NCBI RefSeq assembly: GCF_041146795.1
Contig: NC_135175.1
Coordinates: 33,170,136 to 33,234,135, forward strand
DNA length: 64,000 bases
DNA from: Maylandia zebra
Lineage: Eukaryota; Chordata; Actinopteri; Cichliformes; Cichlidae
Direction: 5' to 3'
Shown in pieces: positions 1-59,160 of this stretch. Positions within the stretch are counted from its first letter, which is position 1; each line of letters starts with the position of its first letter. The notes below the pieces were generated by a model, which searched no databases, was not told the origin of the DNA, and was given only the letters and a program-made list of their open reading frames with translations. The translations under genes and the position numbers were made by a program.

Positions 1-33
1 AAGTCGAATGAAATAGTTTTAAAATAAAATATA

Positions 34-54
34 CCTCAGATGTTAACTCTGAGG
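34..54 (-). other. Small hairpin just downstream of gene A, conserved in all units
   Basis: CCTCAGA and TCTGAGG form a perfect 7-bp stem around a 7-nt loop, about 110 nt 3' of the stop codon, so probably in the 3' untranslated region. The same hairpin occurs at the equivalent place 3' of every copy (for example near 13747, 28818, 36540, 44690 and 52840). Conservation is expected from the young duplications, so function is unproven. Confidence 0.4.
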
Positions 55-161
55 CCAGACTGCTTTAAGATTTTAAAAGAGGTATTTGAAAAAAATCAAG
101 ATGACAATTTAGTCATCAGTACTGCCTTTAAAGCAGCAGCTGAACGGCTTCTTCAAAGCTT

Positions 162-2360
162 TTAACACTGCTGAAAAAACCTGGCAAGCTTGGATTTCTT
201 TGGAGGATTCACGAAGCCACCGAGATTCTTTCTTATGATCTTCCTAATAATGTTGTCAAAAGATGAATCTTCTGACAACATTACATCGAAGAGCTTGTCT
301 GCAGATCCAAACTCCTTGATAAGACCTTCAGCTGTGGCCTTGACTAATTCAACCCTGTTAATTTTAAGAATTTCCAGGTTTTCTGTGCATCTCACTTCAG
401 AAAGTACCAAATCTGTCAGATGGTTGATAGCCAAGTCTAATTTCTTTGGATCCAGAAGATTTCTGGTATTTTTGTGCAAATTTTGTGCGATTCTTGTGGC
501 TAGAAGAGTACTAAATTGATTGGCAATGAGCTTAGCGTGAATTGACACTGATGTTTCTGACAGCTCTTCCTCTGGGTTTTCAGAGGTTGCTGGCTGACTT
601 TGACCCTCTGTGGGGTCAGTGTCAGAGACTGATGCCTGATCACTGCTTGTATTTGAAACCAGGTCCGGGTCTTCTGCACTCACACAAACTGGCTGATTGG
701 TGAGATCAGTAACTGGACTTGACTGTGATGTAAACAGTCTGTCGCTTGTTTCACCAGCATCTGCTCCAATCATAACTTCTTCCTTTGATGGGGTCAGCAC
801 TCTTACTATATCTTCCACGGCACCAGAAATTTTGTCATTTATAATAGTTTGGGTTAAAGTTTCATTCTCCAACCAGAAAAGAAGGTTTTGTAAGAACCTT
901 TCCACTGAATCTTCTATGAGCACATAGGCCACATCAGGAGCAGAGGGTACATTACAGTTACCCTGTGAAGTCTTAGAGAAGTCAGACTCTGAGAGACTTT
1001 TACCCATTTGCATCGTGGGGGCTAAATATGTTGACTCGACATGGTCGTACACTTTATCTGTCAACACCATTGAAAACATCTTGATTTCCTTACTTGTCAG
1101 GTCAAGGTGTCCTGCCGAGAATAATTTACTAAACAGCCTATTCATAAGTGGCATAAATTGACTGAAGTTGAGCGGAGAAGAACTTTTAACTGTGGTTTCT
1201 AAGGTTGGTGATTTTCTGGGAACTTCTGAGGGATTCATGTGTTCGCTTTTCCTGGAGTCAGCTCTTTCACTCTCAGGGGAGGTTGCCTGTTGTCTCTGAA
1301 AGGTCAAAAATCCTTTGCTTTTCTTCAAATGATCTTTCAGCTCACTGTTCATTTTTTCAAATTCTATTTTAGCAAACCTGAAGAAGTGTTGTTTTACTTC
1401 ATCTGGTTTTATAATTAGGGCGCATGATGCAAAAAAGTCTTTCACCTTTTTGATCACCAGGTCCACGTCAAAAGCAGGCTTGGGTGAGCTACACTTCTCA
1501 CTTAATGTGATATCTTCTGCATCAGGATACTGAATGTTTGCAATTAACACATTTACAATGTCAACTGCAGCTTTATCTGCATGATCTTCATCATGTAAAT
1601 AATTCAGATTGTTGAGGATTCTTTCAACATCCCTTTGAGCTTTCTCCTCAGCTTCTTTAATTGTTCCCATCTCAGAGAGCTTGGATTCAAGACTCTCATC
1701 ACTTGAACTAAAGGAAGTGGGTAAAGCCCCCCTCATGCACAGGCCGCTCAGCTTACCTTTATATTTCTTCAGACATGAGAAAGCATGAGAAACCATGCAT
1801 CTGAGGTTTTTTATGTTTGTTATTTTTCTGGTGACATAAATAGAATCCGGGTTTTCTGGGACTAGAACCCAACCCGAGTTGACTTTATTTGAGATCTCCT
1901 CCTCAATCATCTGTGTCAGCGCCACAGCGCTTTCACACTCCTCATGGGTGACATGAAGAGCAGCAGCAAAGCTGGTTGAGAGAGAGTCTCCCAATACGGG
2001 GCTTATTTTTGTCACGGCTAACCTAAGGTATGTCTGGGATGCATCATTTAATTGGTCCTGACCTCCTAGAAGTAACGTTTTTATGGTGCTTGCACTAACT
2101 GACTGAATGACATCAGTAATCATATCAGCCAGTGCTACTTGGACATCAGAGTCCCAGATCCCATTTTCTATCAAGCGCCACTGTAATCCAGAGAGCCTAT
2201 CGAAACACCCGCTGATAGCAGGTGAAATCGCCTCTGAAGTAATGCGGGTAGGGATTCTAATATTGAATAAAGACATTGTCAATGACTTAGTTTCGCTACA
2301 ATTACTTTGGAAATCCGTTTTCAGAAAGCTTTCAGAAAGGGAAGATCGCGGTCTGTACAT
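162..2360 (-). CDS. Gene copy A of the array family: short, single-repeat form with frameshifted end
   Basis: A 732-residue single-exon reading frame; the family is not one I recognise. The start is the ATG that opens MYRPRSSLSESF in every copy, 57 bp downstream of a TATA box. The N-terminal about 230 residues match the other copies. A 38-residue segment present in B-F (their residues about 238-275) is missing in frame. An acidic Ser/Thr-rich linker and one 141-residue repeat (from about residue 585) follow. The repeat runs into a tail reading FDNIIRKIIRKNLGGFV, unlike the other copies. A run of six A, against seven in B-F, shifts the frame at the end, so the basic amphipathic, Cys-Cys-containing tail becomes FFQQC and stops. 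It may encode a shorter protein or be decaying. It also differs from B-F near residues 390-450. Confidence 0.75.
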   Translation of the reverse strand: MYRPRSSLSESFLKTDFQSNCSETKSLTMSLFNIRIPTRITSEAISPAISGCFDRLSGLQWRLIENGIWDSDVQVALADMITDVIQSVSASTIKTLLLGGQDQLNDASQTYLRLAVTKISPVLGDSLSTSFAAALHVTHEECESAVALTQMIEEEISNKVNSGWVLVPENPDSIYVTRKITNIKNLRCMVSHAFSCLKKYKGKLSGLCMRGALPTSFSSSDESLESKLSEMGTIKEAEEKAQRDVERILNNLNYLHDEDHADKAAVDIVNVLIANIQYPDAEDITLSEKCSSPKPAFDVDLVIKKVKDFFASCALIIKPDEVKQHFFRFAKIEFEKMNSELKDHLKKSKGFLTFQRQQATSPESERADSRKSEHMNPSEVPRKSPTLETTVKSSSPLNFSQFMPLMNRLFSKLFSAGHLDLTSKEIKMFSMVLTDKVYDHVESTYLAPTMQMGKSLSESDFSKTSQGNCNVPSAPDVAYVLIEDSVERFLQNLLFWLENETLTQTIINDKISGAVEDIVRVLTPSKEEVMIGADAGETSDRLFTSQSSPVTDLTNQPVCVSAEDPDLVSNTSSDQASVSDTDPTEGQSQPATSENPEEELSETSVSIHAKLIANQFSTLLATRIAQNLHKNTRNLLDPKKLDLAINHLTDLVLSEVRCTENLEILKINRVELVKATAEGLIKEFGSADKLFDVMLSEDSSFDNIIRKIIRKNLGGFVNPPKKSKLARFFQQC
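190..612 (-). repeat. Single 141-residue repeat module in copy A
   Basis: One 423-bp module of the type that is tandemly multiplied in the other gene copies. It is of the H type (HKNTRNLLDPKKLDLAINHL). Its 3' end passes straight into the unique C-terminal tail with sequence not seen in the terminal modules of B-F, which suggests it is not just a recent deletion product. Confidence 0.75.
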
Positions 2361-2416
2361 TTAACGCACGACAACTAAAATGCAAAATGCAAGATTCAGG
2401 TCCCGCTGTTTCACCC

Positions 2417-4607: not shown

Positions 4608-5125
4608 TGTTTCTACTCTGGTCGAAAGAATCCACGCTTCGTACTGATGTCCACAATTCTTTTATTCCTCTCACAATCATGGAGCACCGTGAAAACTAGA
4701 AACAAGTAAAATAATATCGATAGCACATATGATATTCATCTCAGCCACTTATTTCCTTTCACAAGGTGCACAAGTGTTAAACAAATAACAGCATAATGAT
4801 TTTTTACCGTGTACGCCTTGTAAAACCAGCAGTAGAAAAGTTGTATATTCTGAAAAGTCCGCCGTGTTAGCGTTCTGTCTTGTCTCTCCCGCGCACAACT
4901 TCCGGTTCCCGCAACTCACAGGAAGTGACTACTTCACAATAATATTTTAACAGAAACATTTCTTATAAGCAGGATATATCACTGGATTCATAGATTACCT
5001 TTCCTACTGCAAATGTACACAAGCATGAGAAGCAAATAAAGAAAACAAATAGAAAACAATAACGATCTCCGATTCACTTTGGTGTTGTCATGGCAACCCA
5101 CACAAACATTTCAGCGTCAGCTACA
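4608..5125 (-). repeat. 3' LTR of the BEL/Pao element
   Basis: 518 bp, same length and apparently the same sequence as 11446-11963. It ends at CTACA followed by the polypurine tract of the internal region. 5126-5386 is internal non-coding sequence. Confidence 0.93.
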
Positions 5126-5386
5126 CTCCCACCAATTACCTTTGATTATTACAATTGAGAACGTAAATACACTTGCATTTCTCATTATATCAATGGTAAT
5201 TCCCAAGCACCATGTTGTTGTTTTAAACATTCTTGCATTGACATAAACAATATTCTTTTCTCAACAAATGAATTCAACAATATGAACAGTAGATTTTACA
5301 TCTCCATAACATGTGCATGAAGTACAGCATAATGACAACTTCTATTTTAGAAGGGAAATCTAATCAATGAATGACATTTTTCCCAT

Positions 5387-6172
5387 TTAGCTGTTTTTCA
5401 CCAGGACCACTAATTTCTGAATGGGTCTCTGAATGATTGAGGGTTGGACGAGGCGTTCGCCTCCCTTTCCTAACTTCCGATCACCAGTCTGGATTGTCAC
5501 CTTCCGTACAAGTCCATCATCATCCTCATGTGCTTCCACAACCCTAGCAAGTTTCCATTCATTGCGAGGAACATCTTCCTCTTTGAGAATCACAATGTCA
5601 CCCACCTCCACATTACGTCTTGGTGTATGCCATCGCTGTCTCAGAGCAATATTGGCCAGGTATTCCTTTCTCCATCTGTGCCAAAATTGCTCAGTCAAAT
5701 ACTGTACCCTTCTCCACCGTTTCTTAGCATACAGGTCCTCCTTGACGAATTTACCTGGAGGTGGAAGTGGGACTGAGGATTTCATGGTGATCAAGTGGTT
5801 CGGTGTGAGTGGCTCCAAGCTTTTGGGGTCATTGATGTTATCAACAGTGAGTGGGCGGTTATTCACGATGCACATAGCTTCATAAAGGAATGTCCTCAAT
5901 GAAGCATCATCCAACCTTCCCACACTGCAGGCAAGGACTGTGCTCAGTACGCTTCTCACTGTCCGGATTTGACGCTCCCATGCGCCTCCAGCATGACTAG
6001 AGTGGGGCGTATTCATCTGGAAGTCGCACTGATTTTCTGCTAGGTATGCAGTCACTCTTTCCTTATCAAGTTCTTTCAGAGCCTTTGCCATCTCGTTTCT
6101 TGCCCCCATAAAGTTAGTTCCCTGATCGGACCTAATGTGCCTAACAGCTCCACGAAGGGAGAAATGGGTCAA
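5387..6172 (-). pseudogene. BEL/Pao integrase, C-terminal part out of frame
   Basis: 261 residues open in a frame different from gag-pol. It contains the second catalytic Asp (RSDQGTNF) and the Glu (GGAWERQIR) of the D,D35E integrase core, followed by the Pao-type integrase C-terminal domain (WHRWRKEYL; W-rich, ends PIQKLVVLV). The HHCC zinc-binding domain and the first catalytic Asp are absent. They should lie between the end of the gag-pol frame and this segment, so an internal deletion with frame change is inferred at about 6172-6190. The ATG taken as start is incidental. Confidence 0.85.
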
Positions 6173-9100
6173 GCTGAAAGAGTTGGTGGTTGCAAGGCAG
6201 CCTTCCTAGTTTCTGGCTGAGTGTGTTTAACTCCTCTTGAAAGGCATCTTGTTGTGCAAGCTTGACGAGAGTCTGTGCAGCTTGCTTTCTCTCTTCCACG
6301 CTTAAAGGCTCAGCGGTCCTGATCCTCTTTGCCAGCCGCTGGATACGAGCAATGACGTTGACAGCTGTAGTCCATCTTGAGAACCGCAGCAGATGCTTCT
6401 GGATGTCAAACTGCCTTGCTACATCAACCTTCAACACCTGAGTAGTCCTCACCTCTGGGTCTCCCACCAGCAAATCTGAAGTAGCCTGTTTTGTGGCTAT
6501 CTCTCTTTCCCATAGAAAGCTGGGACCAGAGAACCAATTTGACTTGATGAGGTCAGCTACTTTGAGGCCTCTCGAGGCATGATCAGCAGGGTTTTCTCCT
6601 GTGTCAACATAGTACCATTTCCGTGCATCGGTGGTTTCTCGAATTCTCTGCACGCCGTTTGCCACGAACACATGGAACCTTCTTGCTTCATTATTGATGT
6701 AACCAAGCACGACCTTTGAGTCTGTCCAAAAATATTCGTCATCAACCTTGAGTTCTAGCTCCTCTCTTAACATGCTGCTCACAGATGCCGAGGTTACTGC
6801 TGCAGTTAACTCAAGTCTCGGTATGGTAACTATTTTGGTTGGTGCAACCCTCGCCTTGCCCATGACCAAGGAGCAGCATACCCTTTCTCTGCTTACCACT
6901 CTGATGTAAGAGCACTGGCCATACCCTTGACTGCTTGCATCAGAGAAATGATGAAGCTCGACTCTTTGAATCTCGCCAAGGCTGTCAGGTATGAAGCATC
7001 TTTGAATTTCAATTCTTTCCAGGTTCTCCAGATCCTTCATCCAAGTCTCGCACCTTAACTTCAAGCCTTTGGGTAGTGGCTCATCCCACCCTGTGCCTCT
7101 CTGACACATCTCCTGCAGCACTCTTTTCCCTTCAAGAATGACTGGGGCTAGAAACCCCAAAGGGTCATACAAGGAGGCCACAATTGAGAGAATCCCTCGG
7201 CGCGTTGCTGGTTTCTCCTCAAGTGACACCTTGAAGGAGAAGCTATCATTTTCAACATTCCACCTTATACCTAGCACTCTTTGAACTGGTAAATCCTCGT
7301 GATTAAGATCAACATTCTTTACCTCCGTAGCACGCTCTGCAACATCGACAGAGTCAAGGACCTCTCGGCTGTTGGAGAGAAATTTGTGAAGGTGCAGCTT
7401 TCCTTTGGCACACACGGCTTGGGCTTCTTTGACCAGTTCAATTGCCTTACCCACCGACTCTACACTTATGAGACCATCGTCGACATAGAAATGTTTCTGG
7501 ATGAAGTTAGCTGCGGAGGGGTACTCTTTCTCACATTGGCTGGCAAGGTGCTTCATGCCATAATTGGCGCAGCCAGGGGATGATGATGCTCCAAACAGGT
7601 GAACCTTCATGCGGTACTCTCTGGGTTCAGAGTTTGTGTCTCCATTTTCCCACCAGAGAAACCGCAGGTAGTCTCTATCATCCTCGCTCACATGAAACCT
7701 GTGGAACATTTTCTCCACATCACACATGACTGCGATGGGATGTTTACGGAAGCGGCACAGCACGGCTGTTAGGCTATTTGTGAGGTCAGGTCCTGTTAGC
7801 AGATGGTCGTTTAAGGAGGTGCCTTCATACCTTGCAGAGCAGTCGAAAACCACTCTGATTTTTCCTGGTTTTCTGGGGTGGTAAACTCCTTGGTGTGGGA
7901 TATACCAGACTTTCCCCAGCTCTGCTTGGTTTTCCACTTTCTCTGCATCTCCATCCTTGAAGACACCTTCCATAAATCTCACGTAGTCTATTTTGAATTT
8001 GGGATCTCTGTCCAGCTTCCTCTTTAGATGCTTCAGCCGTACTAACGCCAGCCCTTTGTTGTCTGGGAGATGCGGACGTGCTTTGAAAGGGAGAGGCATC
8101 TCCAGGTGACCATCCTTATTTTGTTGGATTCTGTCTTTCAAGATCTGCAGGAAGCAAATATCTTCTTGAGATATGCTTCTGTCACCAGGTTTTGTGTCTG
8201 CAAAATCAGACTCCAGGGCCTTGATGACAGCAAATGGTGTTATGGGTGGCACCTCTCTGACAGACACTCGATGACAAAAACCAGTCACATCTTTAGCCTG
8301 CACACGCTGTGGTGCGCTTCCCACAATGCTCCAACCAAGATCCGTCTCAATAGCATAAGGCTCATAGTCACCCCCAGTGACGACCCTTCTTGGAATTAAC
8401 GCTCTGGAGCAGTCGTATCCAATCAACAATCCAACACCACAGTCCATCAACGGGGGTATCTCCTGGGCCATGCTTACAAGGTGTTTCCATTTGTTGGCTG
8501 TCTGGCAAGTGGGAATATGTGTGCGGTCAAGGGGAATGAAGTCCCTTGTGTAGGCTGGAGGCAAACTGATGGAAACATTAGAGGAAAATCCTCTAACTTT
8601 GAGCTTGCATACTCTTTGACTCTTCACGACTGAGTCTCTCCCCATCATGGTGGAAAGTTTAAGTTTCACTGGTTCCATTGTTGCTTGTAGCTTTTCGCAC
8701 ACCTCCTGATCAACAAATGTGTGACTGCTTTGAGTGTCCAATAGTGCATACACTAGGGTTTCAGTGTCCGGAGCACTAAGTGTTGAGATCCACACTGGGA
8801 CTATCATTGATGTACTCCCACCTTCACCTCCACTCACACAACATGATAATGACAACGTACTTTCTTCAACTGCGCCTTGTGTTGATGCTGCTGTAGAACG
8901 ATCTTCATGCAATGGCGTTGGGTGACTCTTTCTGCATATGCCACACATGGCCCTGTTCCTACAGTCTTTAGAATTGTGACCCTTTCTTAGACATGCAAAA
9001 CACAACTTATTTTCAAGTATGCATTTTTTCTTATCCTCTACAGACATGTCCATAAGCCTCTTGCATTTATGTATGGAATGGTTCTCACTACAGCAAATAC

Positions 9101-10754
9101 ACTGGCCATTATTGGAATTTTGTGTTGGTGTGGTCCATTTCTTTGGTTTCCCTGCATCTCCCAACTTGATTTCACCAGGGTCAGATTTGGCGGTGGAGCT
9201 TGATGGAATCGGGGGTTTCACATTTGTGGCAAACGTGTTTGCTTTTGAACGCTTCATCTCTCTTGCTGGTGCCTCTGCAGAGTGCCTTAAGGCATGTAAG
9301 GATGACACTGGATTGCATGCGATGCGTGACTCCTTAGAGATAAAGGAAGCAAACTCATGAAAGCTTGGATAGTCGTTGCCCCGATCTAGCTGCTCTGTGA
9401 CATAACGGTTCCATCTAGATGTCACCCAATCAGGAAGCTTGACTAGTATTTTCTGATTCTCCTCACAGTCGTTAAGAACCTGTAAGCCCTTTACGTGAGG
9501 CATGGCATTACTACATGTTTGGAGGAAATCACTGAAATCTCTTAACTTGAGATATTCCTTTCCACCAATCTTCGGCCACCCATTTAGCTTATCTCTGAAA
9601 GCCCGCTGCACTACAAAGGAATGGCCATATCTAGCATTTAACCTATCCCATGCTTGTTGATAGGCTTCTTCATCTTTTCTGTAGAAGCTGCCTTCAAGAG
9701 AGGATTTTGCCTCACCTGCTATGTACTTTTGCAGGTAGAATAGCCTGTCTGCAGGGTCAGAGCATCGTCTCTCTATGAGGGCTTTGAAGCTTATGCTCCA
9801 TTCTGTAAACTTCAGAGGATCGCCCGAGAATACAGAAGGTTCTGGAGTTGGCAAGCGAGTAAGAGCTAATGACTCTTGTAGCGATTGGACCAATGATGTC
9901 TCGTTTTGCACAACCTGCCGTTCTTGATCTGGGATGTGGTGAGCGAAGGGGTGTGCATCACTCACTTTGCTGAATGGAGGACTGCGTGTCCCATCCCTTC
10001 CCTCTTCTTCAGTGTAGACATTTAGCTTTGCCTGAATTACATCAATGTCCCTCTGATTTTCAAGTTTTCTCAACTGCTGACGTTGAGCTTCGATGGCAGC
10101 TTCCATATCAATTTCGGCTTTCTTTGCAGCCAGCTGAGCAGCCACTTCCGCTCTCATAGCTGGAATGCTAGGTGACTCTGAGAGATGGTTAGAATTGTGA
10201 CAGCTGGGTGCAGTAACTCTGGAGGCTGTGGATCCATATATGGACCTAGCATATTCATTATCAAGTAGCATGCGTAACCTTGATCTTTCCGCCACCGTGT
10301 CAAACTCACCTTCATCTTCAGTCAGACGTACTCTCATCAGCTGCAGCAAGTCGGCCGTCATGGCTGAGCATGCATCGATCTTTCTTCGAAATTCTTGACT
10401 TGGTGAGGTTTGGAGTCGAATTCTGTCATACTGTTCCTTTAATTCAGACTCAAGCTTCTCAGCCTCATCCATCATATCATACATGTCACTCTCAGAGCAT
10501 ACTTGCTTTAACTTTGTGCGAATGTCTCTTACGTTGCTTTTCCATTTCTCGTATGTTGCTTTGAACCTCTTCTCCTTTTGAGTTAACTCTTGATCTTTCA
10601 GTTCCTGCATTTTTGGCGTTAATCGCCTTTCACGAGAGGATTTTCTTGCTTTTGTCTCAGATTTCTCAGACACTACACTTTTTTCCTCTTCCAAATCCCC
10701 TGCATCTTGTACTTCTGACATAACATCAGGGTGACTATGACCATCTTTAGACAT
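6141..10754 (-). CDS. BEL/Pao Gag-Pol polyprotein (truncated before integrase)
   Basis: 1537 residues. Residues about 1-290 are charged and predicted coiled-coil (many E/K/R, a QRQQLRKLE heptad-like run). About 305-460 is a Gag-like domain beginning FSGDPLKFTEW (DUF1759 type). About 550-600 has CCHC-like knuckles (CFACLRKGHNSKDC and neighbours). About 672 is the aspartic-protease-like ALLDTQSSHTF motif with the DTQS variant that BEL elements often carry. About 920-1150 is reverse transcriptase with FDCSA and catalytic YVDD near 1090. About 1265-1400 is RNase H (FSDASSQGYG). It ends LDPFLPSWSC, where an intact element would continue into integrase. No other frameshift or stop is seen upstream. 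Confidence 0.9.
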   Translation of the reverse strand: MSKDGHSHPDVMSEVQDAGDLEEEKSVVSEKSETKARKSSRERRLTPKMQELKDQELTQKEKRFKATYEKWKSNVRDIRTKLKQVCSESDMYDMMDEAEKLESELKEQYDRIRLQTSPSQEFRRKIDACSAMTADLLQLMRVRLTEDEGEFDTVAERSRLRMLLDNEYARSIYGSTASRVTAPSCHNSNHLSESPSIPAMRAEVAAQLAAKKAEIDMEAAIEAQRQQLRKLENQRDIDVIQAKLNVYTEEEGRDGTRSPPFSKVSDAHPFAHHIPDQERQVVQNETSLVQSLQESLALTRLPTPEPSVFSGDPLKFTEWSISFKALIERRCSDPADRLFYLQKYIAGEAKSSLEGSFYRKDEEAYQQAWDRLNARYGHSFVVQRAFRDKLNGWPKIGGKEYLKLRDFSDFLQTCSNAMPHVKGLQVLNDCEENQKILVKLPDWVTSRWNRYVTEQLDRGNDYPSFHEFASFISKESRIACNPVSSLHALRHSAEAPAREMKRSKANTFATNVKPPIPSSSTAKSDPGEIKLGDAGKPKKWTTPTQNSNNGQCICCSENHSIHKCKRLMDMSVEDKKKCILENKLCFACLRKGHNSKDCRNRAMCGICRKSHPTPLHEDRSTAASTQGAVEESTLSLSCCVSGGEGGSTSMIVPVWISTLSAPDTETLVYALLDTQSSHTFVDQEVCEKLQATMEPVKLKLSTMMGRDSVVKSQRVCKLKVRGFSSNVSISLPPAYTRDFIPLDRTHIPTCQTANKWKHLVSMAQEIPPLMDCGVGLLIGYDCSRALIPRRVVTGGDYEPYAIETDLGWSIVGSAPQRVQAKDVTGFCHRVSVREVPPITPFAVIKALESDFADTKPGDRSISQEDICFLQILKDRIQQNKDGHLEMPLPFKARPHLPDNKGLALVRLKHLKRKLDRDPKFKIDYVRFMEGVFKDGDAEKVENQAELGKVWYIPHQGVYHPRKPGKIRVVFDCSARYEGTSLNDHLLTGPDLTNSLTAVLCRFRKHPIAVMCDVEKMFHRFHVSEDDRDYLRFLWWENGDTNSEPREYRMKVHLFGASSSPGCANYGMKHLASQCEKEYPSAANFIQKHFYVDDGLISVESVGKAIELVKEAQAVCAKGKLHLHKFLSNSREVLDSVDVAERATEVKNVDLNHEDLPVQRVLGIRWNVENDSFSFKVSLEEKPATRRGILSIVASLYDPLGFLAPVILEGKRVLQEMCQRGTGWDEPLPKGLKLRCETWMKDLENLERIEIQRCFIPDSLGEIQRVELHHFSDASSQGYGQCSYIRVVSRERVCCSLVMGKARVAPTKIVTIPRLELTAAVTSASVSSMLREELELKVDDEYFWTDSKVVLGYINNEARRFHVFVANGVQRIRETTDARKWYYVDTGENPADHASRGLKVADLIKSNWFSGPSFLWEREIATKQATSDLLVGDPEVRTTQVLKVDVARQFDIQKHLLRFSRWTTAVNVIARIQRLAKRIRTAEPLSVEERKQAAQTLVKLAQQDAFQEELNTLSQKLGRLPCNHQLFQLDPFLPSWSC

Positions 10755-10974
10755 TTTCAGACTTTAAAGGGGGTATCTTATGAAGAGGACAAGATAACTA
10801 AGGTAATTACAAGAATGGATGTAATAGGCGGAGAATTATTAAAATTAACACAAAGGAACCTTAGCTTAGATTCTTACGTATGACAGCAAATAAATTTTCA
10901 GTTTCAGCCTTCATGAAGCTTGCAAGCAACAGGTAAGAAAACAACAATAATTTCCAGAACTTCAACAGATTGTC

Positions 10975-11042
10975 CTTTTTTTTTTCTTTTCTTTTTTTTT
11001 CCTTTTTTTGTTTGTTTGTTTGTTTGTTTGTTTGTTTTTTTT
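10975..11042. repeat. Poly-T and (TTTG)n simple repeat in the element leader
   Basis: A T/C-rich run is followed by about seven TTTG units. It lies between the gag-pol start and the 5' LTR, in the untranslated leader (10755-11445), which otherwise shows no gene. Confidence 0.9.
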
Positions 11043-11249
11043 ACACAATCCGAAATTTGAACACTATTAATTCCTTGTCCATTACAGCAAATTTGTAGCT
11101 CATGTTCTATCCATCAACTCATGAGGCATAATAACTGCGCAATATAGCCTGAGGACTCACGCTTTAGCCTGAAACCGCTTCTTGGAGTGTCCGCTGAATC
11201 TGCAGCTCCCGATTGGTTGTCACAAAATGCAAAGCAACGTGTCCACTGA

Positions 11250-11420
11250 AGCCTGTAGCTCGCTGCAGGATGAGAAGCAACCGAGACCTGTAGCTTGCTG
11301 CAGGATGAGAAGAGCTTTGCACACCGAAGCCTGTAGCTTGCTGCAGGAGGGGAAGCGCGTTTGCAAACCGAGACCTGTAGCTTGCTGCAGGATGAGAAGA
11401 GCTTTGCACACCGAAGCCTC
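11250..11420. repeat. Short tandem repeat in the BEL/Pao leader
   Basis: Four cores of CCTGTAGCTTGCTGCAGG start at about 11252, 11287, 11330 and 11374 with intervals of 35, 43 and 44 bp, joined by GAGAAG/CCGAAGC spacers. Because of the repeat, minus-strand frames stay open here (11114-11518), but they are repeat translations, not a recognised protein. Confidence 0.8.
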
Positions 11421-11445
11421 CAGATGGATTGGGACACGTTTTCAC

Positions 11446-18060: not shown

Positions 18061-18139
18061 AGCGATCACTAATAAATCACAGACGCATCAACGTCGGTGT
18101 TGTCAAACTTTCAATCATACCTGCAGCCAGTTACCCAGC

Positions 18140-41537: not shown

Positions 41538-41582
41538 CTCTGTCCTGCATGACGTCTCATCTCCATCAGAAATGCATTCAAT

Positions 41583-43755: not shown

Positions 43756-43821
43756 TATTTTATTCATAAACTTCACTATTTCATTAATTATTTCATGGTT
43801 TCTTTGCATCTTCATCTGTAG

Positions 43822-44643: not shown

Positions 44644-44764
44644 CTCAGTCTAATTAAAGTCGAATGAAATAGTTTTAAAATAAAATATACCTCAGATGTT
44701 AACTCTGAGGCCAGACTGCTTTAAGATTTTAAAAGAGGTATTTGAAAAAAATCAAGATGACAAT

Positions 44765-48820: not shown

Positions 48821-48869
48821 TTAACGCACGACAACTAAAATGCAAGATTCAGGTCCCGCTGTTTCACCC

Positions 48870-48999
48870 CTATTTATAGACTCGAGTGGAGGTCACGTGC
48901 TGCAAGATCAAAGGCACGTACTGTGACATCAAAGCAGAAAGGAACTGAGCTGTGTGACGTCATGCCGCGAGCGTTCACCTACATGCACGTGCACACGTG
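48870..48999 (-). promoter_or_regulatory. Core promoter of gene E
   Basis: TATA at about 48871-48879, CRE at 48955-48962, E-boxes to 48999. Confidence 0.65.
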
Positions 49000-49501
49000 A
49001 GCGATCACTAATAAATCACAGACGCATCAACGTCGGTGTTGTCAAACTTTCAATCATACCTGCAGCCAGTTCTTTGAAGCTCTCAAATGGGTTGAATGGC
49101 GGCTGTTTTCCACCATCATCGCAGAGCATTCCTCCAGCAGGTCCAACGCCTGATTCAACAAAACCCGCGACTCCGGCAGCTGTGCTCCGAAGCAGTTTGC
49201 TAATGTGATGCTAACTAGCTAATGTGATGCTAACTAGCTAAAGAATCCTAACAGGTACTTAAAAAACAAAGGGGACGAAGGAGGAGGAGGAGAAGTGGAG
49301 ACAGCGACCTGACTGACTGGTTCATCTGAGGCTCTCAGTGGTTCCCTGTCTCAGCGAGATTCACAACACTTCTTGCAACAAACTCCCGTAACCATGGTTA
49401 CAGGAGGACGCTCTGTTTGTGGCAGTCATTATCACAGTATGACTCACAAAGAGACGTTAATAAATATTAATTCATGCAATTTAAACACATTTTTTATTTT
49501 A

Positions 49502-49687
49502 CTAATGAGGTGTATAATGGTTTAATATGGCACGACACCCTCGCTGATGTTGATGCCTAGGAATCTGAAGCAGCTGACTCTCCACCTCTGCTACTGCTGC
49601 TCTCCTGTAACCCACGATGAGCTCCTTGGTTTTGTTGATGTTAAGCACCAGGTTGTTGTCACGGCACCGTGATGTCACGCCCCTCAC
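49502..49687 (-). pseudogene. LINE reverse-transcriptase fragment, unit E
   Basis: Copy of 3049-3234. Confidence 0.6.
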
Positions 49688-49732
49688 CTCTGTCCTGCAT
49701 GACGTCTCATCTCCATCAGAAATGCATTCAAT

Positions 49733-50213
49733 GAGAAGATTAGACTTTATTGATCGACGGCAGGAAAATTTGTGTGTTACCTCAGCTCAGGTAGAGATAG
49801 CAGAAGAAAATCCAAAAATCCAAATAAAATATAAACAACTACAAAATAAATAAGATAATACACTATATACAACAGTAGCATACACAGTATGTGACTATGG
49901 ATAGAGTGTTGTGGAAATGCAAGAAATACATTTAATTATTCTTACATTACTATTACTATTTAAGCAATAGATATCTAAAAGTATCTATAAGTATAGACAT
50001 GTACTTGCACACACATCTACACACTAAATATACACATGTATACATATACATACACATATACCTGCACACCAGGTAAATGTCCAGTGACTCATGACAGCGT
50101 GATTGAGGAGTTATAGAGTCTAACTGCTGTTGGGATCAATGATCTGTGAAAGCGCTCCTTCCTGCAGTGAGGCTGTTTTGGTCTCTGACAAGGATCTGCT
50201 CAGCTCACAGACT
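49733..50213 (-). mobile_element. LINE 3'-end relic, unit E
   Basis: Copy of 3280-3760. Confidence 0.45.
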
Positions 50214-51600
50214 CATGCAGAGGATGATGTGGGTTGTTCGTGATGGATGTCAGCTTTACTAGCATTTTTAGCACACGATCAAAGTTTCTGTGGATGCTTG
50301 AAAAATCTTGAAGAACGTTGAATTCACTGAAGGTTTTAAAAATAATGCTGTAATCAGTTTCGTTACAGTTGCAGTGTTGTCTTCTGCTACTGTAGGCCAC
50401 AGCAGCAGCAGACGACAACACAGGTTGAGTAAGTGGGAGTGGGTGTTTTCAGACACAGAAGAACAACTTTAGATTAATCAAATAAAAATGTATTCAGTCA
50501 GCTTTCCAAATGTGAATGTTTCAGTTGTCTGTGAGTAGGAACTCAACTCTAATAAACTATAAGTTTATTTAACTATAAAAATAGTATGCTTGTTTGCAAA
50601 ACGTGATGTGCTTCTGCATCTTCACAGAGTTTCTCTCAGTTTGTGGTCGAGAGTCCTCCAAATGTAAGCATCGAACCAGAGCTAGAATTTGGCTGCTTAA
50701 TCTTTATTTCACTTCCTGGATGCTGTTTCTGTTTTCCATCAGGGTCGTTCTCATGCTTTCTATTCTGATGTAAAGTAACTGGAGGAAAGCAGCTCCCCAG
50801 AACAACGATTTGTCTCCAGACATTGGCCACCTCCACCATAGCAGATAACCAGGAGTGCTCCAAGGATCAGGAAACACTGGGGACTTGAAAAAAATGCAAA
50901 AATTATTTCAGATTAAAGTTAATATAAAACGTCAAACACTGTGTGCTTCCTAGTCAGTGAGATTTAAATTTGATCCCTCTTTGTTTATTGTATGTTGTAT
51001 GTTTATTATTAAATAAACATGCACAATTAGAAAGAGAAAGACAGAAGAAGAAATTAAGCTCCCCTTTTTCCCCAGAGGAGATCAGAAGTCAGCCAGAGCC
51101 ATACGAGTCTGCAATTAGCTGGGAGCGAGAGCTTGAGCCCTGGAGGTCTGACTGAAAGAGAAACCGCATCGGTTTAACAGACAAATTAAGAGTCTGACCT
51201 CTTAACAGTGGACAGGGTGGTGGAGATGTTCTGAGGGTGAGGCGGTCCTGTGTGGTCTGAGCTCTCCACTGCAAACCTCGGACAGGAACAGAAACTGCAA
51301 GACAGACATAAACACTTCTTTTACACACACTTTGATGGCCTAACCTCTGTGTTTTTTACATTCATGTGTTTACGTGTGATGTACATGACTATTGTGCATC
51401 TGGCTCAGTGTTTGATATTGTAAAGCAAAGTCAATAACAGCAAAAATTTAATATTTTACTTTTTATTTCTGTCGCCCTCCTGCATCAATCCCAGAATCAC
51501 CCACACCCTTTACCACATTTGCTTACTTTAGAGACTCCAGACACCAGGAAGTGGGAGAAATTTCTCTTATAATAAGATACGGTAATCTTTCTGACAATAG
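50214..51600. other. Unit E spacer without recognisable genes
   Basis: Collinear with units C and D; empty BEL/Pao site near 51057. Confidence 0.5.
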
Positions 51601-51905
51601 GTGAGATTGCTTTTAAATATGGAAACGGGGATAGTCACAAGAAGTTTGAGAGGCACAACTCAGACAGAAGAGCAGACAGAGAAAAGCCATGTGGATAGGA
51701 GCTACTCTCCCGAGCTAAGGTTAGCCACAGAGGGCATGGATGCAGACGAGCCCAGCCTCCTGAACATCCCGAAAGAGCTTCGTGACTTTAGGAAACACAA
51801 CAACAAACAATATGCACATATTAGACGAGGGTTAAGAAGAGTTGATGCTAGAATGGAAGAAGCAGAGGGGCGATTCGACGAGACTGAGACGGTGCTACAG
51901 TTGTT
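51601..51905 (+). pseudogene. L1-type ORF1 fragment, unit E
   Basis: Copy of 12508-12812. Confidence 0.5.
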
Positions 51906-51971
51906 TATTTTATTCATAAACTTCACTATTTCATTAATTATTTCATGGTTTCTTTGCATCTTCATCTGTAG

Positions 51972-52291
51972 CAGCGGTCTCCAACCTTTTTTGCGCCACG
52001 GACCGGTTTATGCCCGACAATATTTTCACGGACCGGCCTTTAAGGTGTCACGGATAAATACAACAAAATAAAACTAGTACCGGTACCGAAAAAAAGAAGA
52101 TTTATTCATAACACACGTGAAAAGACCCAGGAAAACCGAGTTAACGACCAAAACGATAACAAAATAACGCTGAAAACCGATAAAAACCTTGAAAACCATA
52201 CATTTCACACCTGAGACTCTACTCTCGCGGCCCGGTACCAAACGACTCACGGACCGGTACTGGTCCGAGGCCCGGGGGTTGGGGACCGCTG
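51972..52291. mobile_element. hAT MITE, unit E
   Basis: Copy of 12879-13198. Confidence 0.93.
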
Positions 52292-52582
52292 ATCTGTAGC
52301 ACTTACACATCGGTGTATGTTCCTTGTGTTTGCTTACATTAAAATACCAGCACTAATGACCAGAGCATACAAATGCAGCTTTTCATATTTGACAATATAT
52401 TTTGAAAGCACAAGACAAATCACAAACAGTTTTCAATGTAGGTTTGGTTTTTTATTTTGTTTTATTTTTCAGTTCTTGATTTGATGGTGATGTGATGCTA
52501 TATTACATGTTTCTAAGATTCAGCTGAATTTAATATTTGTAATATAGCATCGAATCACAACCGTCTCCTCAAGTTGCTTTAT

Positions 52583-52793
52583 ACTGTAAGATAGAGACCC
52601 TACAGTAGCAGCAAGAAAACCCCAAATATTAATAATCCCTTATGAGCAAGCACTTGGCGACAGTGGGGAGGAAAAACTACCTGTAACAGGCAGAAACCTC
52701 CGGCAGAACCAGGCTCAGAAGGGACGGCCATCTGCCTCGGCCGGTGGGGGGTGATGGTAACGATAATACGAGGAGACACGATGAAGAATATTT
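52583..52793. repeat. Common teleost interspersed repeat, unit E
   Basis: Counterpart of 13490-13700. Confidence 0.5.
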
Positions 52794-52914
52794 CTCAGTC
52801 TAATTAAAGTCGAATGAAATAGTTTTAAAATAAAATATACCTCAGATGTTAACTCTGAGGCCAGACTGCTTTAAGATTTTAAAAGAGGTATTTGAAAAAA
52901 ATCAAGATGACAAT

Positions 52915-55900
52915 TTAGTCATCAGTACTGCCTTTAAAGCAGCAGCTGAACGGCTTCTTCAAAGCTTTTAACACTGCTGAAAAAAACCTGGCAAGTTTGG
53001 ATTTCTTTGGAGGATTCACGAAGCCACCGAGATTCATTGCTATGTGCATCAGAATAGTGTCGTCAAAAGATGAATCTTCTGATATCATTACATTGAAGAA
53101 CTTGTCTGCAGATCCAAACTCCTCGATAAGGCCTTTAGCTGTGGCCTTGACTAATTTATTCATGTTATTATTAAGAATTTTTAGGTATTCGGTGCATCTA
53201 TCTTCAGAAAGTACCAAATCTGTCAGATGGTTGACAACTAAGTCTATTTTTCCTCGATCCAGAAGATTTCTGGCATTTTTGTGCAATTTGTGTTTTATTC
53301 TCATGACCAGAGAAACGCTAAATTGATTTGAAATTAGCCAATCATCAGGTGACACTGATGTTTCTGACAGCTCTTCCTCTGGGTTTTCAGAGGTTGCTGG
53401 CTGACTTTGACCCTCTGTGGGTCCAGAGTGAGACACTAATGCCTGATCACCAATATTCATTGCTAGGTGCTTCAGAATAGTGTCGTCAAAAGATGAATCT
53501 TCTGACAACATTACATCGAAGAACTTGTCTGCAGATCCAAACTCCTTGATAAGACCTTCAGCTGTGGCCTTGACTAATTCAACCCTGTTAATTTTAAGAA
53601 TTTCCAGGGATTCGGTGCATCTCATTTCAGAAAGTACCAAATCTGTCAGATGGTTGATAACTAACTCTAATTTTTCTGGGTCCAGAAGATTTCTGGTATT
53701 TTTTTGCAAATTTTGTGCGATACTTGTGGCTAGAAGAGTACTAAATTGATTGGCAATGAGCTTAGCATGAATTGACACTGATGTTTCTGACAGCTCTTCC
53801 TCTGGGTTTTCAGAGGTTGCTGGCTGACTTTGACCCTCTGTGGGTTCAGAGTGAGACACTAATGCCTGATCACCAATATTCATTGCTAGGTGCTTCAGAA
53901 TAGTGTCGTCAAAAGATGAATCTTCTGACAACATTACATCGAAGAACTTGTCTGCAGATCCAAACTCCTTGATAAGACCTTCAGCTGTGGCCTTGACTAA
54001 TTCAACCCTGTTAATTTTAAGAATTTCCAGGGATTCGGTGCATCTCACTTCAGAAAGTACCAAATCTATCAGATGGTTTATAGCCAAGTCTAATTTTTTT
54101 GGATCCAGAAGATTTCTGGTATTTTTGTGCAAATTTTGTGCGATTCTTGTGGCTAGAAGAGTACTAAATTGATTGGCAACAAGTTTAGCATGAATTGACA
54201 CTGATGTTTCTGACAGCTCTTCCTCTGGGTTTTCAGAGGCTGCTGGCTGACTTTGACCCTCTGTGGGTTCAGAGTGAGACACTAATGCCTGATCACCAAT
54301 ATTCATTGCTAGGTGCTTCAGAATAGTGTCGTCAAAAGATGAATCTTCTGACAACATTACATCGAAGAACTTGTCTGCAGATCCAAACTCCTTGATAAGA
54401 CCTTCAGCTGTGGCCTTGACTAATTCAACCCTGTTCATTTTAAGAATTTCCAGGGATTCGGTGCATCTCATTTCAGAAAGTACCAAATCTGTCAGATGGT
54501 TGATAACTAACTCTAATTTTTCTGGATCCAGAAGATTTCTGGTATTTTTTTGCAAATTTTGTGCGATTCTTGTGGCTAGAAGAGTACTAAATTGATTGGC
54601 AATGAGCTTAGCATGAATTGACACTGATGTTTCTGACAGCTCTTCCTCTGGGTTTTCAGAGGCTGCTGGCTGACTTTGACCCTCTGTGGGTTCAGAGTGA
54701 GACACTAATGCCTGATCACCAATATTCATTGCTAGGTGCTTCAGAATAGTGTCGTCAAAAGATGAATCTTCTGACAACATTACATCGAAGAACTTGTCTG
54801 CAGATCCAAACTCCTTGATAAGACCTTCAGCTGTGGCCTTGACTAATTCAACCCTGTTCATTTTAAGAATTTCCAGGTTTTCTGTGCATCTCACTTCAGA
54901 AAGTACCAAATCTGTCAGATGGTTGATAGCCAAGTCTAATTTTTTTGGATCCAGAAGATTTCTGGTATTTTTGTGCAAATTTTGTGCGATTCTTGTGGCT
55001 AGAAGAGTACTAAATTGATTGGCAATGAGCTTAGCGTGAATTGACACTGATGTTTCTGACAGCTCTTCCTCTGGGTTTTCAGAGGTTGCTGGCTGACTTT
55101 GACCCTCTGTGGGGTCAGTGTCAGAGACTGATGCCTGATCACTGCTTGTATTTGAAACCAGGTCCGGGTCTTCTGCACTCACACAAACTGGCTGATTGGT
55201 GAGATCAGTAACTGGACTTGACTGTGATGTAAACAGTCTGTCGCTTGTTTCACCAGCATCTGCTCCAATCATAACTTCTTCCTTTGATGGGGTCAGCACT
55301 CTTACTATATCTTCCACGGCACCAGAAATTTTGTCATTTATAATAGTTTGGGTTAAAGTTTCATTCTCCAACCAGAAAAGAAGGTTTTGTAAGAACCTTT
55401 CCACTGAATCTTCTACGAGCACATATGGCACCTCAGGAGCAGAGGGTACATTACAGTTACCCTGTGAAGTCTTAGAGAAGTCAGACTCTGAGAGACTTTT
55501 ACCCATTTGCATCGTGGGGGCTGGATATGTTGACTCGACATGGTCGTACACATTTTCTGTCAACTCCCTTGAAAACATCTCCTTACTTGTCAGGTCAAGG
55601 TTTCCTGCCTGGGTTAATTTACTAAACAGCCTATTCATAAGTGGCATAAATTGACTGAAGTTGAGCGGAGAAGAACTTTTAACTGTGGTTTCTAAGGTTG
55701 GTGATTTTCTGGGAACTTCTGAGGGATTTATGTGTTCGCTTTTCCTGGAGTCAGCTCTTTCACTCTCAGGGGAGGTTGCCTGTTGTCTCTGAAAGGTCAA
55801 AAATCCTTTGCTTTTCTTCAAATGATCTTTCAGCTCACTGTTCATTTTTTCAAATTCTATTTTAGCAAACCTGAAGAAGTGTTGTTTTACTTCATCTGGT

Positions 55901-56970
55901 TTTATAATTAGGGCGCATGATGCAAAAAAGTCTTTCACCTTTTTGATCACCAGGTCCACGTCAAAAGCAGGCTTGGGTGAGCTACACTTCTCACTTAATG
56001 TGATATCTTCTGCATCAGGATACTGAATGTTTGCAATTAACACATTTACAATGTCAACTGCAGCTTTATCTGCATGATCTTCATCATGTAAATAATTCAG
56101 ATTGTTGAGGATTGTTTCAACATCACTTTGAGCTTTCTCCTCAGCTTCTGCAAACTCATCACTTTCTTTTTCCTCCACAGGTTGCAGTTCTATGTGACAG
56201 TCCTGGTCATCTTTACTTATCTCTCTGTCTGTACTCCACCTCATGAGAGCCATACTTATTTCTTTAATTGTTCCCATCTCAGAGAGCTTGGATTCAAGAC
56301 TCTCATCACTTGAACTAAAGGAAGTGGGTAAAGCCCCCCTCATGCACAGGCCGCTCAGCTTACCTTTATATTTCTTCAGACATGAGAAAGCATGAGAAAC
56401 CATGCATCTGAGGTTTTTTATGTTTGTTATTTTTCTGGTGACATAAATAGAATCCGGGTTTTCTGGGACTAGAACCCAACCCGAGTTGACTTTATTTGAG
56501 ATCTCCTCCTCAATCATCTGTGTCAGCGCCACAGCGCTTTCACACTCCTCATGGGTGACATGAAGAGCAGCAGCAAAGCTGGTTGAGAGAGAGTCTCCCA
56601 ATACGGGGCTTATTTTTGTCACGGCTAACCTAAGGTATGTCTGGGATGATGCATCATTTAATTGGTCCTGACCTCCTAGAAGTAACGTTTTTATGGTGCT
56701 TGCACTAACTGACTGAATGACATCAGTAATCATATCAGCCAGTGCTACTTGGACATCAGAGTCCCAGATCCCATTTTCTATCAAGCGCCACTGTAATCCA
56801 GAGAGCCTATCGAAACACCCGCTGATAGCAGGTGAAAAAGGCTCTGAATTAATGCGGGTAGGGGTTCTAACACTGGATACAGACATTGTCAATGACCTAA
56901 TTTCGCTACAATTACTTTGGAAATCCGTTTTCAGAAAGCTTTCAGAAAGGGAAGATCGCGGTCTGTACAT
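52915..56970 (-). CDS. Gene copy F: full-length, five repeats, array edge
   Basis: 1351 residues, unrecognised family, one exon. C-F type N-terminus. The first module reads NHLTDLVLSEV (Thr as in C, while B, D and E have Ile), and the last linker reads GDQALVSHSG as in B, so F combines features of different copies. All modules have DKFFDV where D and E have one DKLFDV. Tail intact, no frame damage. It is the last gene before the array boundary; its upstream spacer ends at 59160. Confidence 0.87.
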   Translation of the reverse strand: MYRPRSSLSESFLKTDFQSNCSEIRSLTMSVSSVRTPTRINSEPFSPAISGCFDRLSGLQWRLIENGIWDSDVQVALADMITDVIQSVSASTIKTLLLGGQDQLNDASSQTYLRLAVTKISPVLGDSLSTSFAAALHVTHEECESAVALTQMIEEEISNKVNSGWVLVPENPDSIYVTRKITNIKNLRCMVSHAFSCLKKYKGKLSGLCMRGALPTSFSSSDESLESKLSEMGTIKEISMALMRWSTDREISKDDQDCHIELQPVEEKESDEFAEAEEKAQSDVETILNNLNYLHDEDHADKAAVDIVNVLIANIQYPDAEDITLSEKCSSPKPAFDVDLVIKKVKDFFASCALIIKPDEVKQHFFRFAKIEFEKMNSELKDHLKKSKGFLTFQRQQATSPESERADSRKSEHINPSEVPRKSPTLETTVKSSSPLNFSQFMPLMNRLFSKLTQAGNLDLTSKEMFSRELTENVYDHVESTYPAPTMQMGKSLSESDFSKTSQGNCNVPSAPEVPYVLVEDSVERFLQNLLFWLENETLTQTIINDKISGAVEDIVRVLTPSKEEVMIGADAGETSDRLFTSQSSPVTDLTNQPVCVSAEDPDLVSNTSSDQASVSDTDPTEGQSQPATSENPEEELSETSVSIHAKLIANQFSTLLATRIAQNLHKNTRNLLDPKKLDLAINHLTDLVLSEVRCTENLEILKMNRVELVKATAEGLIKEFGSADKFFDVMLSEDSSFDDTILKHLAMNIGDQALVSHSEPTEGQSQPAASENPEEELSETSVSIHAKLIANQFSTLLATRIAQNLQKNTRNLLDPEKLELVINHLTDLVLSEMRCTESLEILKMNRVELVKATAEGLIKEFGSADKFFDVMLSEDSSFDDTILKHLAMNIGDQALVSHSEPTEGQSQPAASENPEEELSETSVSIHAKLVANQFSTLLATRIAQNLHKNTRNLLDPKKLDLAINHLIDLVLSEVRCTESLEILKINRVELVKATAEGLIKEFGSADKFFDVMLSEDSSFDDTILKHLAMNIGDQALVSHSEPTEGQSQPATSENPEEELSETSVSIHAKLIANQFSTLLATSIAQNLQKNTRNLLDPEKLELVINHLTDLVLSEMRCTESLEILKINRVELVKATAEGLIKEFGSADKFFDVMLSEDSSFDDTILKHLAMNIGDQALVSHSGPTEGQSQPATSENPEEELSETSVSPDDWLISNQFSVSLVMRIKHKLHKNARNLLDRGKIDLVVNHLTDLVLSEDRCTEYLKILNNNMNKLVKATAKGLIEEFGSADKFFNVMISEDSSFDDTILMHIAMNLGGFVNPPKKSKLARFFSAVLKALKKPFSCCFKGSTDD
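52997..55115 (-). repeat. Coding tandem repeat in gene F: 5 x 423 bp
   Basis: H, Q, H, Q, T modules at exact 423-bp spacing. Confidence 0.93.
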
Positions 56971-57019
56971 TTAACGCACGACAACTAAAATGCAAGATTC
57001 AGGTCCCGCTGTTTCACCC

Positions 57020-57149
57020 CTATTTATAGACTCGAGTGGAGGTCACGTGCTGCAAGATCAAAGGCACGTACTGTGACATCAAAGCAGAAAGGAACTGAGC
57101 TGTGTGACGTCATGCCGCGAGCGTTCACCTACATGCACGTGCACACGTG
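57020..57149 (-). promoter_or_regulatory. Core promoter of gene F
   Basis: TATA at about 57021-57029, CRE at 57105-57112, E-boxes to 57149. Confidence 0.65.
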
Positions 57150-57651
57150 AGCGATCACTAATAAATCACAGACGCATCAACGTCGGTGTTGTCAAACTTT
57201 CAATCATACCTGCAGCCAGTTCTTTGAAGCTCTCAAATGGGTTGAATGGCGGCTGTTTTCCACCATCATCGCAGAGCATTCCTCCAGCAGGTCCAACGCC
57301 TGATTCAACAAAACCCGCGACTCCGGCAGCTGTGCTCCGAAGCAGTTTGCTAATGTGATGCTAACTAGCTAATGTGATGCTAACTAGCTAAAGAATCCTA
57401 ACAGGTACTTAAAAAACAAAGGGGACGAAGGAGGAGGAGGAGAAGTGGAGACAGCGACCTGACTGACTGGTTCATCTGAGGCTCTCAGTGGTTCCCTGTC
57501 TCAGCGAGATTCACAACACTTCTTGCAACAAACTCCCGTAACCATGGTTACAGGAGGACGCTCTGTTTGTGGCAGTCATTATCACAGTATGACTCACAAA
57601 GAGACGTTAATAAATATTAATTCATGCAATTTAAACACATTTTTTATTTTA

Positions 57652-57837
57652 CTAATGAGGTGTATAATGGTTTAATATGGCACGACACCCTCGCTGATGT
57701 TGATGCCTAGGAATCTGAAGCAGCTGACTCTCCACCTCTGCTACTGCTGCTCTCCTGTAACCCACGATGAGCTCCTTGGTTTTGTTGATGTTAAGCACCA
57801 GGTTGTTGTCACGGCACCGTGATGTCACGCCCCTCAC
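57652..57837 (-). pseudogene. LINE reverse-transcriptase fragment, unit F
   Basis: Copy of 3049-3234. Confidence 0.6.
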
Positions 57838-57882
57838 CTCTGTCCTGCATGACGTCTCATCTCCATCAGAAATGCATTCAAT

Positions 57883-58363
57883 GAGAAGATTAGACTTTAT
57901 TGATCGACGGCAGGAAAATTTGTGTGTTACCTCAGCTCAGGTAGAGATAGCAGAAGAAAATCCAAAAATCCAAATAAAATATAAACAACTACAAAATAAA
58001 TAAGATAATACACTATATACAACAGTAGCATACACAGTATGTGACTATGGATAGAGTGTTGTGGAAATGCAAGAAATACATTTAATTATTCTTACATTAC
58101 TATTACTATTTAAGCAATAGATATCTAAAAGTATCTATAAGTATAGACATGTACTTGCACACACATCTACACACTAAATATACACATGTATACATATACA
58201 TACACATATACCTGCACACCAGGTAAATGTCCAGTGACTCATGACAGCGTGATTGAGGAGTTATAGAGTCTAACTGCTGTTGGGATCAATGATCTGTGAA
58301 AGCGCTCCTTCCTGCAGTGAGGCTGTTTTGGTCTCTGACAAGGATCTGCTCAGCTCACAGACT
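57883..58363 (-). mobile_element. LINE 3'-end relic, unit F
   Basis: Copy of 3280-3760. Confidence 0.45.
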
Positions 58364-59160
58364 CATGCAGAGGATGATGTGGGTTGTTCGTGATGGATGT
58401 CAGCTTTACTAGCATTTTTAGCACACGATCAAAGTTTCTGTGGATGCTTGAAAAATCTTGAACGTTGAATTCACTGAAGGTTTTAAAAATAATGCTGTAA
58501 TCAGTTTTGTTACAGTTGCAGTGTTGTCTTCTGCTACTGTAGGCCACAGCAGCAGCAGACGACAACACAGGTTGAGTAAGTGGGAGTGGGTGTTTTCAGA
58601 CACAGAAGAACAACTTTAGATTAATCAAATAAAAATGTATTCAGTCAGCTTTCCAAATGTGAATGTTTCAGTTGTCTGTGAGTAGGAACTCAACTCTAAT
58701 AAACTATAAGTTTATTTAACTATAAAAATAGTATGCTTGTTTGCAAAACGTGATGTGCTTCTGCATCTTCACAGAGTTTCTCTCAGTTTGTGGTCGAGAG
58801 TCCTCCAAATGTAAGCATCGAACCAGAGCTAGAATTTGGCTGCTTAATCTTTATTTCACTTCCTGGATGCTGTTTCTGTTTTCCATCAGGGTCGTTCTCA
58901 TGCTTTCTATTCTGATGTAAAGTAACTGGAGGAAAGCAGCTCCCCAGAACAACGATTTGTCTCCAGACATTGGCCACCTCCACCATAGCAGATAACCAGG
59001 AGTGCTCCAAGGATCAGGAAACACTGGGGACTTGAAAAAAATGCAAAAATTATTTCAGATTAAAGTTAATATAAAACGTCAAACACTGTGTGCTTCCTAG
59101 TCAGTGAGATTTAAATTTGATCCCTCTTTGTTTATTGTATGTTGTATGTTTATTATTAAA
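58364..59160. other. Truncated unit F spacer
   Basis: Collinear with the other units up to TTTATTATTAAA, then similarity stops. Private changes: a 3-bp deletion near 58461 and a C-to-T in GTTTTGTTAC near 58505. Confidence 0.85.

Follow-up and report, generated by a model that had tools for sequence, protein, structure and literature searches.

A 64,000-nucleotide stretch of the Maylandia zebra genome (assembly GCF_041146795.1, contig NC_135175.1, positions 33,170,136 to 33,234,135; hereafter referred to as the window) carries a head-to-tail array of at least six copies of a large gene, all on the minus strand and each consisting of one open reading frame (Table 1). Judged from its sequence, the gene belongs to a genuine family of protein-coding genes in spiny-rayed fishes, amplified here at two levels, namely that of the whole gene and that of a single domain within it. 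A real and recently amplified coding family is a conclusion that lies near the observations, and we consider it very likely. A first-pass annotation of the window had described six copies of a protein of up to 1351 residues on an 8150 bp unit, and this description agrees with the six minus-strand frames of 732–1351 amino acids that we find. It had also placed the right end of the array at position 59160, which is indeed where homology to the unit stops; the start of the array lies to the left of window base 1. Its count of “four or five” intact frames was too low, as the frame is open in all six copies, over 2.2–4.1 kb, though copy A is shorter than the others and its tail is gone. Relative to the other copies, copy A lacks 38 residues through an in-frame deletion and terminates in QQC, which replaces their final 21 residues. 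Whilst the array itself was correctly recognized, the annotation overlooked the 141-residue repeats within the gene, as well as two mobile elements, a BEL/Pao retrotransposon and an element with terminal inverted repeats (TIR element), which interrupt the A–B and B–C spacing.

Copies D, E, and F are spaced by exactly 8150 bp and, as had been noted before, they are nearly identical, with 8–10 substitutions per 8.1 kb. Units D and E show 8 differences in 8150 bp; units D and F, 10 substitutions and 3 gap columns in 8100 columns; and units E and F, 8 substitutions and 3 gap columns in 8100 columns. The remaining copies are close to these. The regions upstream of C and D have 2 differences in 2243 columns. 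Copy B, which is 99.4% identical to unit D over 6.2 kb, differs from D at 18 of 4053 positions within the coding sequence and at 5 of 2102 outside it. Between A and D, 11 of 708 positions in the 5′ coding part and 2 of 2236 noncoding positions differ; upstream of A, the sequence is 99.1% identical to unit D over 3.0 kb. Differences between the copies are therefore so few that duplication, or homogenization, must have been recent, as the first-pass annotation had proposed.

Relatives of the array protein were collected in three protein searches, each of which scored the ~8000 candidates with the most shared words, so that absence of the family from other fish is not demonstrated. These searches yielded 33 homologues, all labelled “uncharacterized” or “unnamed”: five from Oreochromis niloticus, one each from Haplochromis burtoni, Simochromis diagramma, and Centropristis striata, and 25 from pipefishes and seahorses. 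Six cichlid proteins are 82–89% identical to copy D over 54–74% of its length, the Simochromis fragment and the Centropristis protein are 76% and 33% identical to copy A, respectively, and the 25 pipefish-family proteins are 23–26% identical to residues 1–790 of copy D. A profile search placed the array protein in this orphan family (LOC109200771 in O. niloticus, LOC121812085 in H. burtoni, LOC131987763 in C. striata, and several pipefish and seahorse LOC entries) with E-values from 0 to 1.7e-39, and 43 columns are invariant in the 34-row alignment (A4) of two window rows with 32 of the 33 homologues, from which P0011, a chimeric fragment, was excluded. In a tree of 17 of the 33 homologues and the six window copies, the latter form one group (support 99/99), with H. 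burtoni as the nearest row. The entries of three pipefish-family species have consecutive gene numbers, which suggests that tandem gene pairs occur there as well. The gene had previously been called unrecognized; this is true in that it is undescribed and belongs to no named family, but 33 relatives exist in the databases. None of 12 family LOC numbers was mentioned in the literature that we searched, with most subscription papers lying outside the search; as far as this literature and these 12 gene numbers show, the family is present in databases but undescribed. Four of the tilapia proteins (P0006, P0008, P0009, and P0010) are also labelled as ferret (Mustela putorius) in one source, which is probably a mislabelled or merged record.

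The second level of amplification concerns the last domain of the protein, a ~106-residue C-terminal domain found in all six window copies and in 32 of the 33 homologues. In the window it is carried on a repeat unit of 423 bp (141 amino acids) and, when modelled alone, is predicted to adopt a confident, all-helical fold (mean predicted local distance difference test score, pLDDT, of 83.5). The homologues have at most three such domains (29 have one, P0009 and P0012 have two, P0005 has three, and P0011 has none), whereas window copies B–F have four or five; the array of at least six genes also sets the window apart from these homologues. A further alignment (A5) comprised 27 of the 33 homologues together with repeats 1 and 5, and a tree was made of 25 domains from copies A–D (E and F omitted) and eight homologues, from which the partial second domain of P0009 was dropped. 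In this tree, repeats 1–4 of the window and the sole domain of copy A form one group (91/95), which subdivides into 1 + 3 and 2 + 4, a split that fits the copying of a pair. The terminal repeat falls outside this group, and the repeats of tilapia cluster in another part of the tree. Given that just three of the 17 inner branches are firmly supported, there is moderate support for the idea that the domain multiplied independently in this lineage and in tilapia. P0011, the 456-residue Simochromis protein, consists of several copies of an N-terminal segment; other parts of the gene can therefore duplicate too.

Each of the six copies is preceded by a similar short promoter, in agreement with the earlier description. 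A TATA box (CTATAAATAG) is located 59 or 66 bp, and a full cAMP-response element (CRE; TGACGTCA) 142 or 149 bp, 5′ of the ATG in every copy; every promoter also has three CACGTG words, and in copy D an in-frame TAA immediately precedes the ATG. Across the window, CRE words occur seven times versus 0.74 expected, although six of the seven derive from a single promoter by copying and should not be counted as independent. Downstream of the stop codon, AATAAA or ATTAAA words are found at 380–458 bp in B, D, E, and F and, in C, at 391 bp; for copy A, the window includes only 161 bp of downstream flank. From its sequence, the gene is plausibly compact and complete. It had been termed large and intronless, and the coding region does occupy a single frame; “intronless” holds for that coding frame only. 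Further upstream of copy D, at 40910–40979 on the minus strand, is an exon-like piece, MLCDDGGKQPPFNPFESFKELAA, followed by a donor-like site (CAG/GTATG). Equivalent pieces are found upstream of the other copies too, with that of B split by the TIR element, and they may be a fragment of the first exon of another gene. We provisionally rejected the piece as the first exon of the array gene, as the joins tried by eye break the reading frame. The combination of CRE and TATA box hints at germ cells, but in a mouse study such promoter elements are reported not to predict regulation by CREM (PMC3091680).

Ratios of nonsynonymous to synonymous change (dN/dS) come from a plain Nei–Gojobori count that used codon pairs free of gaps. 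Comparing copies, we obtained 1.09 for A and B, 1.31–1.34 for A versus C–F, 2.4–4.8 for B versus C–F (17–18 amino-acid-changing and 1–2 silent differences), 1.2–3.6 for C versus D–F (6–8 changes), and 0.56–0.84 within D–F (3–7 changes). The terminal repeat compared with repeats 1–4 gives 0.87–1.14, and repeats 1–4 compared with each other 0.28–1.75, from few changes. The first-pass annotation had looked to neutral dN/dS as a sign against a maintained gene, and this sign is there in part: ratios between copies are mostly 1 or higher, on few changes, those within D–F are lower, and the conserved cores argue for a working protein. B and D differ in 16 codons, and in each of these the encoded residue differs too. 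The 17 amino-acid-changing differences to one silent are in excess at P values of 0.02–0.06, depending on the assumed transition bias, but many of the changes share one tract and so cannot be counted as independent, which gives the P value less weight. This tract of 22 residues near the N-terminus contains 11 of the 18 B/D coding differences, all in amino-acid-changing codons, a clustering that was matched in none of 20,000 permutations (largest value, 6). Among the tilapia paralogues, one has a D-like (P0006) and one a B-like (P0010) form of the tract, and H. burtoni P0007 has a mixed form, which we take as a sign that the tract was converted or imported. Among nine cichlid proteins, 129 of residues 1–640 are variable, with none of the 40 residues from 521–560 and only one of the 40 from 321–360 among them, such that the cores of the family seem to be held under constraint, and its linkers either free to vary or driven to do so. 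Our reading of this pattern is that the family is functional and that gene conversion acts on it together with selection that is either relaxed or diversifying.

The first-pass annotation had been unable to assign the protein to a family, and our searches named none either. We ran Pfam with four proteins, three homologues, the 34 alignment members, and repeats 1 and 5, without a convincing match to the array protein (eight flank frames were also run), and NCBIfam with four proteins, with the same outcome. The sole Pfam match of the array protein above cut-off was to filovirus VP40 (PF07447), at 26.2 bits for the whole protein (cut-off, 25). We rejected this candidate, as the score is a sum over the repeats; no stretch passes singly, and repeats 1 and 5 alone match no family. 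Pfam holds models for the fibrous-sheath proteins FSIP2 and AKAP, and neither is among the matches of the 34 members at E ≤0.1. Against the PDB, the single protein had no sequence matches and the profile none better than E = 0.06; a fold search with a 790-residue model, or with the lone repeated domain, gave no convincing match, by which a new fold is not proven. In 10 hhalign comparisons, five segments of the protein showed no homology to each other beyond the repeat; the lowest E-value was 0.02, across 22 columns. None of 4227 Rfam families reached its gathering score, and three pattern matches among viral contigs include no relative. No signal peptide was noticed by eye and no strongly hydrophobic stretch was found. 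In copy D, no other 18-residue window reaches the hydrophobic moment of the C-terminal helix (SKLARFFSAVLKALKKPF), and 26 of the 33 homologues have a cysteine within their last 32 residues.

The two mobile elements are insertions into the array. The BEL/Pao element, which is distinct from the amplified gene, is flanked by a 5 bp target duplication (CTCCC) and, like other BEL/Pao retrotransposons, encodes Peptidase_A17 (E = 5.6e-47), DUF1759, and DUF5641; its reverse-transcriptase match (RVT_1) is marginally under cut-off (29.3 versus 29.6 bits). Its long terminal repeats (LTRs) are identical and its frames are long and open, and its insertion was therefore very recent. The TIR element lies 258 bp 5′ of the start codon of copy B. 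It has tandem repeats of 134 and 185 bp near its ends and no frame of more than 106 residues; past it (~28782), the unit continues directly into the 3′ flank of C, and ~3.5 kb of spacer is absent. The rest of the unit spacer has no frame of more than 156 residues, and two pieces of it resemble, by eye, old fragments of long interspersed nuclear elements. Just beyond the array, a plus-strand frame (59708–60085) has C2H2 zinc-finger matches, and the adjoining gene with weak leucine-rich-repeat frames is presumably LRRC31-like.

Table 1. Positions of the array and of other features in the window
Feature	Position	Strand	Details
Copy A	162..2360	minus	732 aa; single C-terminal domain
Copy B	13822..17874	minus	1350 aa; five C-terminal domains
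Copy C	28894..32520	minus	1208 aa; four C-terminal domains
Copy D (reference copy)	36615..40670	minus	1351 aa; five C-terminal domains
Copy E	44765..48820	minus	1351 aa; five C-terminal domains
Copy F	52915..56970	minus	1351 aa; five C-terminal domains
Array unit D	34764..42913		8150 bp
Array unit E	42914..51063		8150 bp
Array unit F	51064..59160		truncated by right end of array
Repeat block, copy D	36699..38813	minus	five head-to-tail 423 bp repeats; residues 620–1324
Variable tract, copy D	40538..40600	minus	63 bp; residues 24–45
Promoter region, copy D	40671..40850	minus	TATA box, CRE, three CACGTG words
TATA box, copy D	40720–40729		in minus-strand promoter region
CRE, copy D	40805–40812		in minus-strand promoter region
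BEL/Pao LTR retrotransposon	4608..11963	minus	between units A and B
BEL/Pao LTRs	4608–5125 and 11446–11963		518 bp each; 0/518 differences
BEL/Pao long gag-pol-type frame	6141–10754	minus (element)	Peptidase_A17 and DUF1759 above cut-off
BEL/Pao second frame	5387–6172	minus (element)	DUF5641
TIR element	18133..28600		10.5 kb; ~36 bp terminal inverted repeats (83% alike)
Weak leucine-rich-repeat frames	60959..63821	minus	outside array; adjoining gene

The explanation that we favor combines these observations into an amplified coding family whose product is a helical scaffold with a membrane tether and multivalent binding; as a composite, it falls slightly short of an even chance. The array would have been generated by unequal crossing-over, with gene conversion homogenizing it and reshuffling short variable tracts. 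As there is no signal peptide by eye and no strongly hydrophobic stretch, we propose that the protein is a cytosolic helical scaffold, in which the amphipathic C-terminal helix and nearby cysteines might serve as the tether and the repeated domain as a binding head. Additional repeats and genes would then increase both the avidity and the dose with which the protein meets a changing partner; candidates for the latter are a pathogen, a selfish element, and a component of the germline. Several points weigh against this explanation. The dN/dS between copies and repeats, mostly around or above 1, would also fit relaxed constraint, that of A versus B shows no excess over neutrality, and the open frames of C, D, E, and F say little because these copies are so alike. 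At 91/95, the group of repeats 1–4 in the domain tree misses the threshold for firm support in that tree. None of the matches in the Pfam or PDB fold searches, whether to a domain or to a fold, names a function, and the structure model of the whole protein is weak (mean pLDDT, 60.1). The tail cysteine is missing in seven of the 33 homologues, and P0009 and P0011 have one but in unrelated tails.

Part of the array might not exist as assembled, if D–F were one or two loci falsely repeated. D and E differ at just the 8 bases given above, but each of D, E, and F carries private differences, C has four repeats, and next to A and B lie insertions that are unique. We consider such an artifact very improbable. 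With elements inserted between A and B and between B and C, these three must be separate loci, and owing to the private features of the copies at least four distinct ones (A, B, C, and one of D–F) stand regardless. Decay would be another way to account for the array: an old gene and its flank, copied by chance and now unconstrained. The dN/dS of A versus B and of repeat 5 versus repeats 1–4 (0.87–1.14) is what such a history would give, copy A is missing its tail as well as 38 residues, and mobile elements sit within the array. Moreover, when 80 random changes were simulated on one repeat, it stayed free of stop codons in 16% of trials, so that open repeats alone prove little. Yet all six frames are open with indels mostly in frame, the constrained cores are common to other species, and the promoter is preserved; with 250 simulated changes, the whole coding sequence stayed open in only 0.2% of trials, the true DNA distance to the other species not being known. 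On balance, we find decay unlikely.

If the family is functional, the question is in which setting. The first-pass annotation had pointed to germline genes and genetic conflict. In that case, the family may be a germline amplicon in such a conflict, expressed in spermatids or oocytes, whose copy and repeat numbers climb in an arms race against a competing selfish element or the suppressor of that element. The recent amplification of both gene and domain, the single coding frame, the compact CRE and TATA promoter of all six copies, and the 17:1 ratio between B and D point in this direction; however, the B/D changes lie mostly in one non-independent tract, and other fast multigene families have the same appearance. 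We see this as a minority possibility. Ampliconic sex-chromosome families resemble the array in being recent, nearly identical multicopy genes with possible gene conversion, and the window units are likewise nearly identical and multicopy; the window array differs in being head-to-tail rather than palindromic. An innate-immune or host–pathogen family, in which tandem duplication and gene conversion diversify a helical sensor or restriction factor of the cytosol, could likewise account for the two forms of the N-terminal tract, the variable linkers between constrained cores, the suggested tandem pairs in three pipefish-family species, and the multivalent repeat. As no immune or signalling domain is among the Pfam matches, however, we rate this setting as rather unlikely. 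A more specific scenario, in which an undescribed family with a fold unmatched here to solved ones joins genetic conflict, with the domain amplified independently in at least two cichlid lineages along with the whole gene, and conversion swapping a short N-terminal recognition tract from copy to copy, strikes us as quite improbable.

Fast-evolving tandem gene families are of a known kind, and it is the two-level amplification of this particular family that merits follow-up. If expressed, the array would offer a compact test case, in a radiating group of fish, for the joint amplification of domain and gene, and for germline or immune conflict as its driver. The constrained cores and the well-predicted repeat would provide handles for work on binding and localization.

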